This document shows positions 59,066-64,000 of a stretch of 64,000 nt of DNA, piece after piece. A program made the translations under genes and the position numbers. Within the stretch, counting starts at the first letter, position 1. Every line of letters begins with the position of its first letter. Origin of the DNA: Sphingobacteriales bacterium 44-15 (GTDB taxonomy: Bacteria; Bacteroidota; Bacteroidia; Chitinophagales; Chitinophagaceae); NCBI GenBank assembly GCA_001899685.1, contig MKWG01000045.1, positions 170,331 to 234,330 on the forward strand, read 5' to 3'. The notes under the pieces are model-generated. The model was not told the DNA's origin. It worked only from the letters and a program-made list of their open reading frames with translations, and made no database searches.

Positions 59066-59131
59066 TCGTGAAACGACAGACCTCAGAGGTGAAACGTGAG
59101 ACAAGCTTTCACCTCTCCCATTTCACGTTTG
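59066..59131. repeat. Word-type intergenic hairpin (GTGAAACGTGAGA family)
   Basis: CGTGAAACG with GAGGTGAAACGTGAG on the left is answered by CTTTCACCTCTCCCATTTCA and CG on the right. Stem pairs are interrupted by a ten-base insert (ACAGACCTCA). It lies in the divergent gap between the lamin-tail gene and the permease gene. Confidence 0.72.
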
Positions 59132-59172
59132 ACATAGCAATAGTATATATAATATAGTCAACACAACACTAC

Positions 59173-60501
59173 ATGAGTTCAACCGGTCAGCAATCCCAAA
59201 ACAACACACATCTTTCCCGAAATTTAGGACCACTGATGCTATGGGGGCTGGGAGTAGGTTATGTAATATCCGGCATGTATTTCGGCTGGAACCTCGGGCT
59301 CGCTGAAGGCGGTACTTACGGGCTGGCCTTAGCCACCCTGCTGATCATTATTTTATATATCACGTTTACTTTTTCCTATACGGAATTAGCCTGTGCCATT
59401 CCCAAAGCCGGCGGTGTTTTTGACTATGCGAGCAGGGCGCTCGGGAAAGAAGCGGGATTCATTGCCGGGCTGTCGCAGATCATTGAGTTTATTTTTGCAC
59501 CCCCTGCCATAGCGGCGGCCATCGGGGCCTATTTCCATATCTTTTTTCCGCAGCTATCTGTTACCGGTATCGCCATAGCCGCTTATATAATATTTACGGC
59601 GCTGAATATTTATGGCGTAAAAGCGGCGGCACGCTTTGAGCTGATCATCACCATACTCGCCGTCGCAGAGCTGTTGATCTTTGCAGGCGCTACGCTGCCG
59701 CATTTCGATATCAAAAATATTCAGCACAATGCTTTTCCCAACGGGTGGAAAGGAGTGTGGGCTCCCATCCCTTTTGCTATCTGGTTCTTCCTTGCTATAG
59801 AAGGCGTAGCCAATGTTGCTGAAGAAACAGTCAACCCCCAGCGTAATGTATTGATCGGTTTTGGCTCAGCACTGCTTACCCTGATCATATTATGTATCCT
59901 CACCTTCCTGTCTTCCGTTGGTGTTGCAGGATGGGAAGCAATAGTATATCCCGCTCCCGGTGCGCCGCCTTCCGATTCGCCGCTCCCGCTGGCGCTGGCC
60001 AAAATAACGGGAAACAGCGCCTGGCTCTACCACCTGCTGATCACTATCGGGCTGATGGGATTGATAGCGTCCTTTCACGGGATCATTCTTGCTTCGGGCA
60101 GGGCAACCCTGGAGTTTGGCAGGGTAGGTTATATTCCCCCGGTATTCGGGAAGATCCATACCAAATTCAAAACTCCGGCCAATGCCCTGCTTATAAATAT
60201 GGTGCTTGGCATCATTGCCCTGCTCACCGGTAAAACATCAGAGATCATAACTATCGCCTGTTTTGGTGCGCTCACCCTATACATTTTTTCAATGATCACC
60301 GTGCTGGCGCTGCGAAAAAAGGAGCCGGATATGCCACGCCCTTTCCGGGTACCTTTTTTTCCTGCTTTTCCTATCGTTGCTTTGGTAATTGCCATAATTT
60401 CGCTGATCGCAATGACGACCCTTAACCTTAGCCTTGCACTCATTTATTTTATGATCCTGCTGGCAGGATATGCCTGGTTTCATTTTTTTGTAAAAAAATA
60501 A
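59173..60501 (+). CDS. APC-superfamily permease, ethanolamine-permease type
   Basis: A 442-residue protein with twelve hydrophobic helices. WGLGVGYVISGMYFGWNLGL is the first helix and is characteristic of the ethanolamine permease group. AIPKAGGVFDYASRALG matches the family's second conserved block, and PFAIWFFLAIEGVANVAEET the sixth-helix region. It should carry a small amine such as ethanolamine across the inner membrane. It begins the operon whose next gene starts 3 bp after its stop. Substrate identity comes from resemblance and context. Confidence 0.85.
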   Translation: MSSTGQQSQNNTHLSRNLGPLMLWGLGVGYVISGMYFGWNLGLAEGGTYGLALATLLIIILYITFTFSYTELACAIPKAGGVFDYASRALGKEAGFIAGLSQIIEFIFAPPAIAAAIGAYFHIFFPQLSVTGIAIAAYIIFTALNIYGVKAAARFELIITILAVAELLIFAGATLPHFDIKNIQHNAFPNGWKGVWAPIPFAIWFFLAIEGVANVAEETVNPQRNVLIGFGSALLTLIILCILTFLSSVGVAGWEAIVYPAPGAPPSDSPLPLALAKITGNSAWLYHLLITIGLMGLIASFHGIILASGRATLEFGRVGYIPPVFGKIHTKFKTPANALLINMVLGIIALLTGKTSEIITIACFGALTLYIFSMITVLALRKKEPDMPRPFRVPFFPAFPIVALVIAIISLIAMTTLNLSLALIYFMILLAGYAWFHFFVKK

Positions 60502-60504
60502 AAT

Positions 60505-61872
60505 ATGCCTTCGGTTACATCAACTTCAGCCTTACTCAAACAGCTCGCTGACCAAAAAACGCAGAAAGTAAAACTGGCGATAACGGATATTGACGGCGTT
60601 TTGCGCGGTAAAGTGATCAGCTTTGAAAAATTTAAATCTATTGCCGAAAGTGGCTTTGGCTTTTGTGATGTGGTTTTTGGCTGGGATGCAGGCGATGTGG
60701 CCTATGATAATGCTGCCATTACCGGCTGGCATACCGGCTATCCCGATGCTACGGCTGTGGTGGATGTGAAAACCTACCGGCACATTCCCTGGGATAATGA
60801 TATCGCTTTTTTCCTGGCCGATTTTGATACGGAGGAAGAGTCCTCTAAAATATGCCCGAGAAATTTATTGAAAAAGGTGAATGAGCAGGTGAAAAAGGCA
60901 GGATATCATGCGTACTGCTCGCAGGAGTTTGAATGGTTTAACCTGATAGATAATTCAACTGAGTTGTACGAAGGAAAATTCCGAGATATCAAACCGATGA
61001 CCAATGGCATGTTTGGTTATTCCGTATTAAGGGCCTCTCAGCGCAATGCCTTCTTCAATGACCTGTTTGACCTGCTGAAAAAATTTGAAGTGCCGCTGGA
61101 AGGTATACATACGGAAACCGGGCCGGGCGTATATGAAGCTGCCATCACTTATTCCGGCTCGCTGGAAGCGGCTGACAGGGCTGTATTGTTCAAGAGCAGT
61201 GTAAAGGAGATTGGTTACCGCCACGGTGTGCTGCCGACTTTCATGGCAAAATTCAATGAGAACCTGCCGGGTTGCAGCGGCCACGTACACCAGAGCTTAT
61301 GGTCTGCCGATTCAAAACAAAACCTGTTTTACGATAAAAAGAAAAAACATAATATCAGCGCATTGATGGAAAGCTATATAGCAGGACAACTGTATTGTCT
61401 TCCTTATATTCTGCCCATGTTCGCGCCTACGGTCAACAGCTATAAAAGGCTGGTGGAAGGCGCCTGGGCGCCGACAACCCTTACCTGGGCAGTAGATAAC
61501 AGGACAACCGCTTTGCGCGCCTTACCCGGCGGTGAAAAATCAGCAAGGCTGGAAACACGTGTGGTAGGCTCTGATTCAAACCCGTACCTCGCTATAGCGG
61601 CATGCCTCGCATCAGGACTATATGGTGTGCGCAAAAAGCTGAAATTAGATACGCCTGTCACTATCGGCAATGGCTATGCGAATAAGACTAATGGTATATT
61701 ACCATCAAACCTGTGGCAGGCAACACAGTCCATGAAAAATTCAGATCTCGCCAAAGAGCTTTTTGGCGAGGCTTTTGTAGCTCATTTTACGGCAACAAGA
61801 GAATGGGAATGGCGGCAGTTCTCAAAGGTGGTTACGGATTGGGAACTGAAGAGATACCTGGAGATCATTTAA
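60505..61872 (+). CDS. Glutamine-synthetase-family gamma-glutamyl-amine ligase (PuuA-like)
   Basis: A 455-residue protein of the GS superfamily. VKLAITDIDGVLRGKVISFE is the beta-grasp start and ETGPGVYEAAITY carries metal-binding Glu. GCSGHVHQSLW is the ATP/metal His loop, APTTLTWAVDNRTTALRALP contains the glutamate-binding Arg, and ARLETRVVGSDSNPYLAIAA is typical of non-canonical GSs that ligate glutamate to amines. Neighbouring permease and gamma-glutamyl hydrolase genes support gamma-glutamylation of an amine instead of ammonia assimilation. It starts 3 bp after the permease gene. Confidence 0.88.
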   Translation: MPSVTSTSALLKQLADQKTQKVKLAITDIDGVLRGKVISFEKFKSIAESGFGFCDVVFGWDAGDVAYDNAAITGWHTGYPDATAVVDVKTYRHIPWDNDIAFFLADFDTEEESSKICPRNLLKKVNEQVKKAGYHAYCSQEFEWFNLIDNSTELYEGKFRDIKPMTNGMFGYSVLRASQRNAFFNDLFDLLKKFEVPLEGIHTETGPGVYEAAITYSGSLEAADRAVLFKSSVKEIGYRHGVLPTFMAKFNENLPGCSGHVHQSLWSADSKQNLFYDKKKKHNISALMESYIAGQLYCLPYILPMFAPTVNSYKRLVEGAWAPTTLTWAVDNRTTALRALPGGEKSARLETRVVGSDSNPYLAIAACLASGLYGVRKKLKLDTPVTIGNGYANKTNGILPSNLWQATQSMKNSDLAKELFGEAFVAHFTATREWEWRQFSKVVTDWELKRYLEII

Positions 61873-62002
61873 AGGGGAAGGTGTAGGGTATAAGGAGTAA
61901 AGCATAAAGAGGGGAAGCCAATCCAAAAACAATGCTTACTAATTCAGATGAAAGACTAAACTCGCAGCATTTCAAATCTCAGATTTTAAATTTCAAATAC
62001 AC
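61873..62002. repeat. Word-repeat fragments in the gap before the alcohol dehydrogenase
   Basis: The left part (GGGGAAGGTGTAGGGTATAA) has the words of the 46.2-kb hairpin but no right arm. The right part has TTTCAAATCTCAGATTT and AAATTTCAAATAC, with a small perfect palindrome AAATCTCAGATTT. It separates the ligase gene from the next gene by 130 bp. Confidence 0.55.
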
Positions 62003-63151
62003 ATGCTTTTCGAAAAAATCCATCAGTTTAATTTTCCTACCACTATACGTTTCGGTGCGAATGTAGTAAAGGAGTTGCCGGCGTATTTAAAAGCGAATAA
62101 TTTAAAAGCGCCGTTGATTGTTACTGACCCTAATGTGGCGCAACTGCCTTTTTTTAAAGAGATAATGGATGATCTCCGCAAGAATAATATTGAAGCTGAA
62201 GTATTTTCAGATATTCATAAAAACCCGGTGAAGTCTGACGTATACAAAGGTGTGGATGTGTGGGATAAGACCGGCCGCGATAGTGTTGTAGGCATTGGCG
62301 GAGGCGCCGGGCTTGATGTGGCGCGTGCCATCCTGCTCCGTATCAATCACAGGGAAGACCTGTTTAAATATGATGATCTTATCGGAGGGGATATTTATGT
62401 CACCAACGATGTACCTCATTTCATCACCGTACCTACCACTTCAGGTACCGGCAGCGAAGTGGGCCGGAGTGCTATTATCGCCGATGATGAAACCCATCAG
62501 AAAAAGATCCTGTTCTCTCCAAAACTGATGGCGAAGATCGTTTTTGCCGACCCGGTGCTTACAATGGATATTCCCGCTCCTATCACTGCCGCTACCGGCA
62601 TGGATGCATTAACGCATAATATGGAGGCTTTCCTGGCCAAGAACTACCACCCTATGTGCGATGGTATCGCCTTACAGGGGATGAAGCTGATACATGAATC
62701 CCTGGAAAAAGCGACTAACAAGCCCGACCTAGAATCAAGAAGCAAGATGCTGTTGGGCTCTATGATGGGAGCCATTGCTTTCCAGAAGGGACTGGGTGTA
62801 GTGCATTCCCTGGCACACCCACTTTCTTCCTTGCTTGATACACATCACGGATTAGCAAATGCCGTTAATATTCCTTACGGTATGGAATTTAATATCACGG
62901 GTTTTGAAGATAAGTTCAGAACGATCGCCAGGACATTGGAGCTGGAAAAAGAAAACGGGGAAGCAGTGGTGCAATATTTATTTGATCTTAACAGCAAGAT
63001 CAGGATACCACATCACCTGAGAGATATCGGCGTGAAAATGGAACATGTGGAAACGCTGGCGGACCTCGCTTTTGCTGATTTTGCACATCCCAATAATCCC
63101 AAGCCGGTGTCGAGAGAAGATTTTAAGCAGTTGTATTTAAAAGCGTTATAG
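62003..63151 (+). CDS. Iron-containing alcohol dehydrogenase
   Basis: A 382-residue protein of the group III alcohol dehydrogenases. GIGGGAGLDVARAI (about 98-110) is the NAD-binding turn. TVPTTSGTGSEVGRSAII follows, and the metal site Asp201, His205 (MDALTHNMEAF), His268 (HSLAHPLSS) and His282 (HHGLANAV) is complete. It would oxidise a primary alcohol to an aldehyde with NAD. Its place between the ligase and the hydrolase suggests a gamma-glutamyl amino alcohol as substrate. It is followed without a gap by the hydrolase gene. Confidence 0.92.
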   Translation: MLFEKIHQFNFPTTIRFGANVVKELPAYLKANNLKAPLIVTDPNVAQLPFFKEIMDDLRKNNIEAEVFSDIHKNPVKSDVYKGVDVWDKTGRDSVVGIGGGAGLDVARAILLRINHREDLFKYDDLIGGDIYVTNDVPHFITVPTTSGTGSEVGRSAIIADDETHQKKILFSPKLMAKIVFADPVLTMDIPAPITAATGMDALTHNMEAFLAKNYHPMCDGIALQGMKLIHESLEKATNKPDLESRSKMLLGSMMGAIAFQKGLGVVHSLAHPLSSLLDTHHGLANAVNIPYGMEFNITGFEDKFRTIARTLELEKENGEAVVQYLFDLNSKIRIPHHLRDIGVKMEHVETLADLAFADFAHPNNPKPVSREDFKQLYLKAL

Positions 63152-63859
63152 ATGCAGAAGAAAAAGATCATTGGAGTTACCGATTGCAGTAAGTATGCCA
63201 ATTACAGCAACTGGATACTGGAGCATGGCGATACGGTAGAGGTAGTCAAACTGAGTTATAAAACCCAAAACTTCACTGATATCCGGCAATGCGATGGCGT
63301 GCTGCTGACAGGTGGTGAAGATGTTCACCCTCGTTTTTACAACCAGCCGGAATTATACAAATACTGCTATGCAGATGATGTGAGTGAAGAAAGGGATGCA
63401 TTTGAATGGAAAATACTGGAATACACTGAAAAGAACGCCCTGCCGGTACTTGGTATTTGCAGGGGGTTGCAGATAGCCAATGTATTTTTCGGGGGCACCC
63501 TGATCCCTGATATACCCCGCTGGGGAAAATTCAATCATTCCAAAATGCCGGATGATACAGACCGCTACCACGAGGTAGCCGTAGATCCAAACAGTTGGCT
63601 GTATGGGTTGATCAAATCGGAAAAGGGAGTGATAAACAGCAATCATCATCAGAGTGCAGACCGGATTGGGGAAGGGCTCATAGTATCGGCTTTCTCCCCT
63701 GACGGCGTTGTGGAAGCGCTTGACAGAAAAGACCCTGCTGGTAAATCATTTTTATGCCTTATTCAGTGGCATCCTGAACGAATGAACGATCCCGGAAGTA
63801 ACTTTGTAAAAAATATTAAAACAGCTTTTGTGGAAGCAGCGGTAAGTAGTAAGACGTAA
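63152..63859 (+). CDS. Gamma-glutamyl hydrolase of the class I amidotransferase fold (PuuD-like)
   Basis: A 235-residue peptidase C26-type protein. GVLLTGGEDVHPRFY is the N-terminal block, PVLGICRGLQIAN carries the nucleophile Cys103, and LIQWHPER gives His207 and Glu209 of the triad. PuuD splits gamma-glutamyl-aminobutyrate in putrescine breakdown; here the ligase upstream would supply a similar gamma-glutamyl amide. The start codon directly follows the stop of the alcohol dehydrogenase gene. The expected aldehyde dehydrogenase is not in the window and may lie to the right. Confidence 0.9.
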   Translation: MQKKKIIGVTDCSKYANYSNWILEHGDTVEVVKLSYKTQNFTDIRQCDGVLLTGGEDVHPRFYNQPELYKYCYADDVSEERDAFEWKILEYTEKNALPVLGICRGLQIANVFFGGTLIPDIPRWGKFNHSKMPDDTDRYHEVAVDPNSWLYGLIKSEKGVINSNHHQSADRIGEGLIVSAFSPDGVVEALDRKDPAGKSFLCLIQWHPERMNDPGSNFVKNIKTAFVEAAVSSKT

Positions 63860-63990
63860 GTGATCAGTTCCAGGGCAGGTTTCAAGTTGCAGGTTACAGG
63901 TACTTAAACTAAAAACATCCTGCAAATTTGCAGCCAGTAACTTGTAACCTGTGCCGCTCTTACCACTTATCACCTACTACTTATCACTTA
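63841..63990. repeat. Nested word-type hairpin (AGGTTACAAGTT and GTAAGTAGTAAG words)
   Basis: GGCAGGTTTCAAGTT (from 63874) pairs with AACTTGTAACCTGTGCC (from 63939). Outside it, GGTAAGTAGTAAG with GTAAGTGAT pairs with ACTACTTATCACTTA near 63976-63990. Inside, CTGCAAATTTGCAG is a perfect palindrome. The left outer arm covers the last codons of the gamma-glutamyl hydrolase gene. Confidence 0.75.
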
Positions 63991-64000
63991 AATTTACCCA

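Follow-up and report, generated by a model that had tools for sequence, protein, structure and literature searches.

Ethanolamine can be broken down in bacteria through gamma-glutamylated intermediates, a route described from Pseudomonadota and Actinomycetota (PMC10132767; PMC6529630). The chain proposed for Chromohalobacter, Streptomyces, and Phaeobacter runs from gamma-glutamylethanolamide through an aldehyde to gamma-glutamylglycine, and from there to glycine and glutamate (PMC6529630; PMC9397018; PMC10132767). Because phosphatidylethanolamine is, according to PMC10132767, a major bacterial membrane lipid, ethanolamine breakdown ties together the recycling of nitrogen, carbon, and phosphorus. 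Flavobacterium is listed among the genera of ethanolamine users, with the route unnamed in that account (PMC9397018), and no report of ethanolamine gamma-glutamylation in Bacteroidota was found among open-licence PubMed Central papers. Here, we describe five genes of Sphingobacteriales bacterium 44-15, a member of the Bacteroidota, which we propose—with a probability of about 0.8—to form an operon for ethanolamine catabolism via gamma-glutamylation, ending in glycine and glutamate. Four of them lie at the right end of the window, that is, the 64,000-nucleotide stretch analyzed (contig bases 170331–234330, in a genome of 6.0 Mb), and the fifth lies just beyond its edge.

The Eto-type cluster of Phaeobacter sp. 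MED193, for which Chromohalobacter salexigens and Agrobacterium are cited as precedents, is described as containing, in this order, genes for a regulator, a hydrolase, a TRAP transporter, a ligase, an aldehyde dehydrogenase (ALDH), and a dehydrogenase (PMC10132767). A cluster with the Phaeobacter gene order is present in Ruegeria sp. B32, where the last gene belongs to the iron-containing alcohol dehydrogenase (Fe-ADH) family PF00465 and the hydrolase to PF05013. The Ruegeria ligase scores 801 bits against PDB 5dm3, which we take to be the Chromohalobacter ligase. The Eto-type ligase, dehydrogenase, and ALDH form the same chain as their counterparts in the window operon, with PF00465 at the dehydrogenase position in Ruegeria sp. 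B32, whereas the TRAP transporter and the N-formylglutamate-amidohydrolase-type (PF05013) hydrolase stand where the window operon has an APC-family permease and a Peptidase C26 (C26) protein. Identity to the Ruegeria proteins, which represent the Eto type here in place of the Phaeobacter genes themselves, is 33% for the ligase and 37% for the alcohol dehydrogenase (ADH).

In Streptomyces, the ligase GlnA4 was reported to be required for growth on ethanolamine, and the first step of the route has been tested experimentally, unlike in the case of the window operon (PMC6529630). Like that operon, the GlnA4 cluster (SCO1610-1615) is described as encoding a ligase, a dehydrogenase, an ALDH, and a glutamine amidotransferase, with a putative ethanolamine permease in several species, but it has a short-chain dehydrogenase/reductase (SDR) in place of the Fe-ADH, a regulator of its own, and a membrane protein (PMC6529630); the comparison is one of gene kinds.

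The window operon begins with an APC-family permease gene matching the ethanolamine permease equivalog (59173–60501, 442 aa), followed by genes for a glutamine synthetase (GS)-fold ligase (60505–61872, 455 aa), an Fe-ADH (62003–63151, 382 aa), and a class-I amidotransferase-like hydrolase of the C26 family (63152–63859, 235 aa), all on the + strand and separated by 3, 130, and 0 bp. These positions and gaps, given in an initial annotation of the window, were confirmed from the open reading frames (ORFs). The same annotation predicted an ALDH gene to the right of position 64000, and this gene was found on the + strand at 64002–65366 in extended coordinates (L002:5333-6697; 454 aa); its 5′ end is the second base beyond the window edge, 142 bp downstream of the hydrolase gene, and the gap before it takes up 63860–64000 at the end of the window. 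An in-frame GTG at 63951 offers an alternative start, but the ATG at 64002 is preferred because matches in relatives begin there. The ORFs of at least 120 aa listed within 2 kb after the ALDH gene are on the opposite strand. With the missing ALDH found, the unit is therefore taken to comprise five genes, which would be transcribed together. The four-gene set is not a product of chance: none of the four family E-values exceeds 4e-43, and relatives show the arrangement again.

In the proposed pathway, the permease would bring in ethanolamine, whose amino group would be coupled to the gamma-carboxyl of glutamate by the ligase—a predicted glutamate-ethanolamine ligase—at the expense of ATP, giving gamma-glutamylethanolamide. 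The Fe-ADH, as the predicted gamma-glutamylethanolamide dehydrogenase, would oxidize the hydroxyl of this compound to the aldehyde, the ALDH would convert the gamma-glutamyl aldehyde into gamma-glutamylglycine, and the C26 protein, as the predicted gamma-glutamylglycine hydrolase, would release glycine and glutamate, with the glutamate being recycled. Such a route would dispense with free acetaldehyde, vitamin B12, and microcompartments. Much the same succession of import, glutamylation, oxidation, and release had been sketched in the initial annotation for ethanolamine or a similar amino alcohol; the scheme has gained from the ALDH, the conserved gene order, and the ethanolamine-pointing context of the permease, while specificity to ethanolamine among the amino alcohols is what we infer from the evidence weighed below. 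As far as the sequences show, the scheme is not contradicted on the points that the initial annotation named as critical: the genes stay together in relatives, and the ligase, although D50 is retained, has lost the flap residue E327 of GlnA.

The genes are conserved together in other Bacteroidota. In a scan of genome contigs that brought up 212 relatives, of which the best 80 were kept (all from Bacteroidota, judging by their titles), 31 of the 60 loci with full flanks carry the permease, ligase, ADH, C26, and ALDH genes in this order, and one carries a partial set. The permease gene adjoins the ligase gene in 51/71 loci testable upstream, and the ADH, C26, and ALDH genes are consecutive in 45/66 loci testable downstream. 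As judged by the ligase, the named genomes closest to this one come from Terrimonas, Chitinophagaceae bins, and Agriterribacter. Relatives carrying all five genes include Terrimonas sp. NS-102 (L048), Agriterribacter humi YJ03 (L054), and Pedobacter frigidisoli RP-3-11 (L120). Where named loci have no adjacent ADH gene, a detached ADH (68–82% identical) was found elsewhere in all 11 genomes searched; C26 and ALDH genes adjoin it at four of the eight such sites inspected, and the ADH gene stands alone at the other four.

Furthermore, ligase and ADH occur together at the level of whole genomes. Among 58 relatives, the ligase query matches 21 and the ADH query (E<=1e-60) 17, the latter set coinciding fully with the 17 genomes whose ligase shares 64% identity or more with that of the window; this pairing of the ADH with ligases of the window's own group (group A) holds in G041 and G054 although the genes are unlinked there. 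The four ligase-bearing relatives without the ADH are G018, G024, and G032, with ligases of another group (57–59% identical), and G035, with a ligase near the Eto type (34%). The 17 relatives belong to 6 of 46 genera. In a sample of 296 genomes from across the phylum (cut-off E<=1e-100 for both proteins), to which the window's genome (G000) and G015 also belong, the ligase was found in 34 and the ADH in six; in each of the six, the ADH gene immediately follows that of a ligase sharing 63–100% identity with the window ligase. Ligases unaccompanied by the ADH do not exceed 60% identity. As a marker, the whole ligase family was rejected: no ADH is present in 28 of the 34 genomes of the phylum sample that have a ligase, and 11 loci with ligases of a second group carry a different trio of genes.

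The gene contexts of the permease are the best clue to the substrate, and point to ethanolamine. The permease (PF13520, E 3.8e-43) scores 442.9 bits with TIGR00908, above the cut-off of 381.75, in agreement with its initial designation as ethanolamine-type, and by this cut-off the cluster contains a predicted ethanolamine uptake system. Its homologues adjoin the EutB gene in eight other Bacteroidota genomes, four of the 58 relatives and four of the 296 genomes sampled. In 19 relatives with such a permease, the gene is next to a group-A ligase gene in 13, about 0.7 kb upstream of the near-Eto ligase gene in one (G035), next to the EutB gene in four, and alone in one (G041). The four permeases in question (G017, G024, G026, and G034; 43–46% identical) are encoded immediately 5′ of EutB in the only relatives that have EutB; all four exceed the ethanolamine-permease cut-off and head apparent permease–EutB–EutC runs, with the EutC family confirmed in one of these loci (L179). 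In the phylum sample, where up to five candidates per genome were scored and permease counts are therefore lower bounds, at least 14 genomes have the permease: six by a group-A ligase, four by EutB, two in a GlnA4-like operon, and two by none of the partners tested. In the window's genome itself, EutB (PF06751) is absent, with E. coli positive as the control, and a role of the operon in EutBC metabolism was rejected on this ground. EutB and the five-gene operon overlap in no genome of either sample; mutual exclusion is not claimed, the genomes being too few.

The ligase matches PF00120 with an E-value of 2.8e-92. When aligned with E. coli GlnA and PuuA, and read in GlnA numbering, with residue numbers and roles that partly follow PMC6529630, it retains E129, E131, E212, E220, G265, H269, R321, R339, R344, R355, E357, and R359, so that the metal residues and most of the glutamate and ATP residues checked are preserved. 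At the position of the flap residue E327, it has Trp; furthermore, a Phe lies opposite Y179, within a gapped stretch of the alignment, and an Ala is found at S53. E327 is needed for glutamine synthesis by GlnA, and is replaced by Phe in the ethanolamine ligase GlnA4 and by Trp in PauA7 (PMC6529630). The cluster thus encodes a GS-fold ligase that has catalytic residues and lacks the flap Glu. Trp is also found at this position in IpuC, annotated as gamma-glutamylisopropylamide synthetase and likewise a GS-fold amine ligase; IpuC, however, is 38% identical and belongs to a cluster with cytochrome P450 and ferredoxin genes. In a ligase tree that did not include GlnA4, the window ligase falls within a Bacteroidota group (support 97/97), apart from the Eto type, which is placed with the ligase of locus L047 (in G035) at 93/85, under the tool's starred level.

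The Fe-ADH matches PF25137 (E 1.4e-49) and PF00465 (E 2.2e-42), and the genome contains no further PF00465 match. The complete metal site claimed for it initially was borne out: D201, H205, H268, and H282, which we presume to be the metal ligands, were located by motif against FucO. Its best NCBIfam match, 4-hydroxybutyrate dehydrogenase, was rejected at 321.9 bits against a cut-off of 500. The hydrolase (PF07722, E 2e-44) has Cys103, His207, and Glu209 within the expected motifs, these being presumably the catalytic residues, and the ALDH (PF00171, E 8.1e-130) has Cys261 and Glu226. Judged by family, ADH, ALDH, and gamma-glutamyl hydrolase genes are thus all present in one cluster, and from their residues the enzymes look competent. 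The initial annotation had regarded an alcohol dehydrogenase in place of a PuuB-type oxidase as a distinct variant of the pathway. This does not hold, since the published Phaeobacter and Streptomyces routes already have a dehydrogenase at the alcohol-oxidation step (PMC10132767; PMC6529630); moreover, an Fe-ADH in ethanolamine gamma-glutamylation is most likely not new, because the Phaeobacter-ordered cluster of Ruegeria sp. B32 ends with a PF00465 gene.

The same pathway logic could serve another primary amino alcohol, such as 3-aminopropanol, alaninol, or serinol, with ethanolamine as a minor substrate. To our knowledge, no member of the window ligase's clade has been characterized, and the nearest non-Bacteroidota homologues compared (42–44% identical) lie in diverse clusters, one of them with a gene annotated as 2-aminoethylphosphonate transaminase and a GMC oxidoreductase gene. 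On the other hand, the permease passes the curated ethanolamine model, and its family adjoins EutB in the eight genomes mentioned above and is part of a GlnA4-like operon in two more. Ethanolamine is preferred mainly because permeases of one family go with three distinct routes for ethanolamine, and another amino alcohol is considered improbable. A much smaller chance is given to a polyamine pathway of the E. coli Puu type (putrescine via gamma-glutamyl-GABA), or to some other amine pathway, with the ADH in a side role. The Puu pathway shares with the window operon the gamma-glutamyl logic, and PuuA, PuuC, and PuuD come from the superfamilies that also contain the operon's ligase, ALDH, and C26 hydrolase, respectively; the initial labels PuuA-like and PuuD-like are apt in this loose sense, but the respective curated models fall far below their cut-offs (PuuA, 192.2 against 650 bits; PuuD, 49.6 against 266; and PuuC, 236.6 against 850), and the ligase shares 29% identity with PuuA of E. 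coli. Unlike the window operon, the Puu pathway acts on a diamine and has the oxidase PuuB at the second step; none of the five genes encodes an amine oxidase or aminotransferase, and no oxidase-family match was found among these five, to which the search for PuuB was confined. The ethanolamine model passed by the permease, and the presence of the ADH together with group-A ligases in 17/17 relatives, also speak against the Puu type, which was set aside on the curated models.

A reading of the ligase as an ordinary glutamine synthetase with unrelated neighbors is scarcely credible. The ligase has the PF00120 domain and retains D50 as in GlnA; however, E327 is lost, the curated GlnA model is not passed (219.6 bits, cut-off 429.15), the GSIII-type models likewise reach about half of their cut-offs, and the ligase is conserved together with the permease, ADH, C26, and ALDH. 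Another GS-domain protein is encoded elsewhere in the genome, in a frame of 731 aa, so the window ligase is probably dispensable for glutamine. This candidate was rejected on the loss of E327 and the second GS-domain protein.

Several observations weigh against a dedicated ethanolamine operon. Pro stands at the position of the glutamate-binding GlnA residue N264, and the retained D50 is a GlnA feature. The window ligase was not seen to group with the Eto-type ligase in the tree; as it lies outside that group and shares 33% identity with the Eto-type ligase and 38% with IpuC, ethanolamine specificity is not transferable by homology. Of the varied clusters that contain the closest non-Bacteroidota ligases compared, two carry a polyamine-type transporter and an aminotransferase. 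Among the 60 full-flank loci, 11 combine permease and ligase but have no ADH next to them, nine show the enzymes with no permease alongside, and eight have neither. The permease link is imperfect as well: four of the eight EutB genomes in the phylum sample have no such permease among the candidates scored, and the permease has no tested partner in G255 and G280 (2/14 sampled). The group-A cut was chosen after the ADH-associated ligases had been seen, and because of this and the common ancestry of the genomes, the co-occurrence counts are not independent trials. Finally, a terminator-like stem lies within the ligase gene, although the eight such sites in total are close to chance (7.2 expected).

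The ethanolamine operon proposed here would not be the only gamma-glutamyl cluster in the phylum. In L181 and L182, and partially in L047, a GlnA4-like Bacteroidota operon has the order ligase–SDR–ALDH–amidotransferase–permease, with a permease 68–69% identical to that of the window, and with a ligase and an ALDH filling equivalent roles. It differs from the window operon in the SDR in place of the Fe-ADH and in an amidotransferase like that of a Legionella cluster; its ligases are 69% (L181) and 65% (L182) identical to that of G035, and that of L181 is 43% identical to the Ruegeria Eto-type ligase and 35% to the window ligase. Its gene kinds match those of the Streptomyces GlnA4 cluster, which is described as having a membrane protein and a regulator besides (PMC6529630). 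In related Bacteroidota, the same permease family adjoins the EutBC route. We lean toward the view that one Bacteroidota ethanolamine permease family serves EutBC, the GlnA4-like operon, and the window operon, and that the gamma-glutamyl route was assembled or acquired at least twice in the phylum, because ligase and dehydrogenase differ in kind between the two operons while the permease is common to them. The pathway is known from other bacteria, and the window version is set apart by the clade of its ligase, the class of its permease, the family of its hydrolase, and the phylum in which it occurs; the steps of such a pathway can evidently be filled by exchangeable enzyme families. A complete Bacteroidota version would also supply a testable function for a ligase clade whose relatives carry no annotation other than glutamine synthetase.

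On a Legionella lytica plasmid, the gene for a ligase sharing 44% identity with that of the window is directly followed by ALDH, Fe-ADH, and amidotransferase genes, and on a Photobacterium plasmid the genes for ligase, ALDH, and Fe-ADH are followed by an ORF of 251 aa that looks amidotransferase-like by eye. Between the ligase and SDR genes of G035's GlnA4-like cluster lie two small ORFs of 150 and 133 aa (L047:4877-5729), which by eye resemble an Xre/DUF2384–RES toxin–antitoxin pair. A further GlnA4-like cluster, in Deinococcota, is possible on plasmid pMESIL01 of Allomeiothermus silvanus (L186), where genes for an amino acid permease, a pyridoxal phosphate (PLP)-dependent aminotransferase family protein, a GS-type ligase (62% identity with the L181 ligase), an annotated glucose 1-dehydrogenase (an SDR, by guess), and an ALDH are consecutive.

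No + strand terminator-like sites were found between the operon genes, and no match to the Bacteroidota-type promoter pattern, in the consensus that we assume for it, was found either upstream of the permease gene or within the two long gaps. A promoter-like site at 59129–59158 on the + strand (TTGACA, 18 nt, TATAGT; 11/12 matches, by consensus only) ends 14 bp 5′ of the permease gene, but is weak, because the region has 16 such sites against a mean of 11.4 in shuffles.

The permeases of G255 (L183) and G280 (L184) are 56% and 39% identical to that of the window, with no tested ethanolamine partner genes in the stretches fetched. At six loci (L089, L090, L091, L093, L095, and L097), the ligase gene is followed by an ADH gene on the opposite strand, with other neighbors partly in common and no C26, ALDH, or permease match within the locus. 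The second ligase group was examined in 11 loci (L044-L046 and L155-L162; 49–60% identical to the window's), nine from the 28 ADH-less genomes of the phylum sample and the others from G018 and G024. In all 11, the ligase gene is followed on the same strand by genes for a protein of about 347 aa and a HAD-family protein, with further ORFs between the two in L044 and L160; the set reads as a ligase, kinase-like, and phosphatase-like trio. The protein of about 347 aa matches nothing in PDB and no Pfam family significantly (the best, APH, reaches E 0.0091, in 2/11 members), and none of the window-type permease, ADH, C26, and ALDH genes was found in the eight loci L155-L162. On plasmids of Rhizobium leguminosarum (L128) and Paraburkholderia phymatum (L189), genes for GS-type ligases occur with those for a C26-annotated hydrolase, a LysE exporter, and neighbors annotated as 2-aminoethylphosphonate transaminase, PLP-dependent transferase, and fatty acid desaturase, a combination resembling that for rhizobitoxine biosynthesis.

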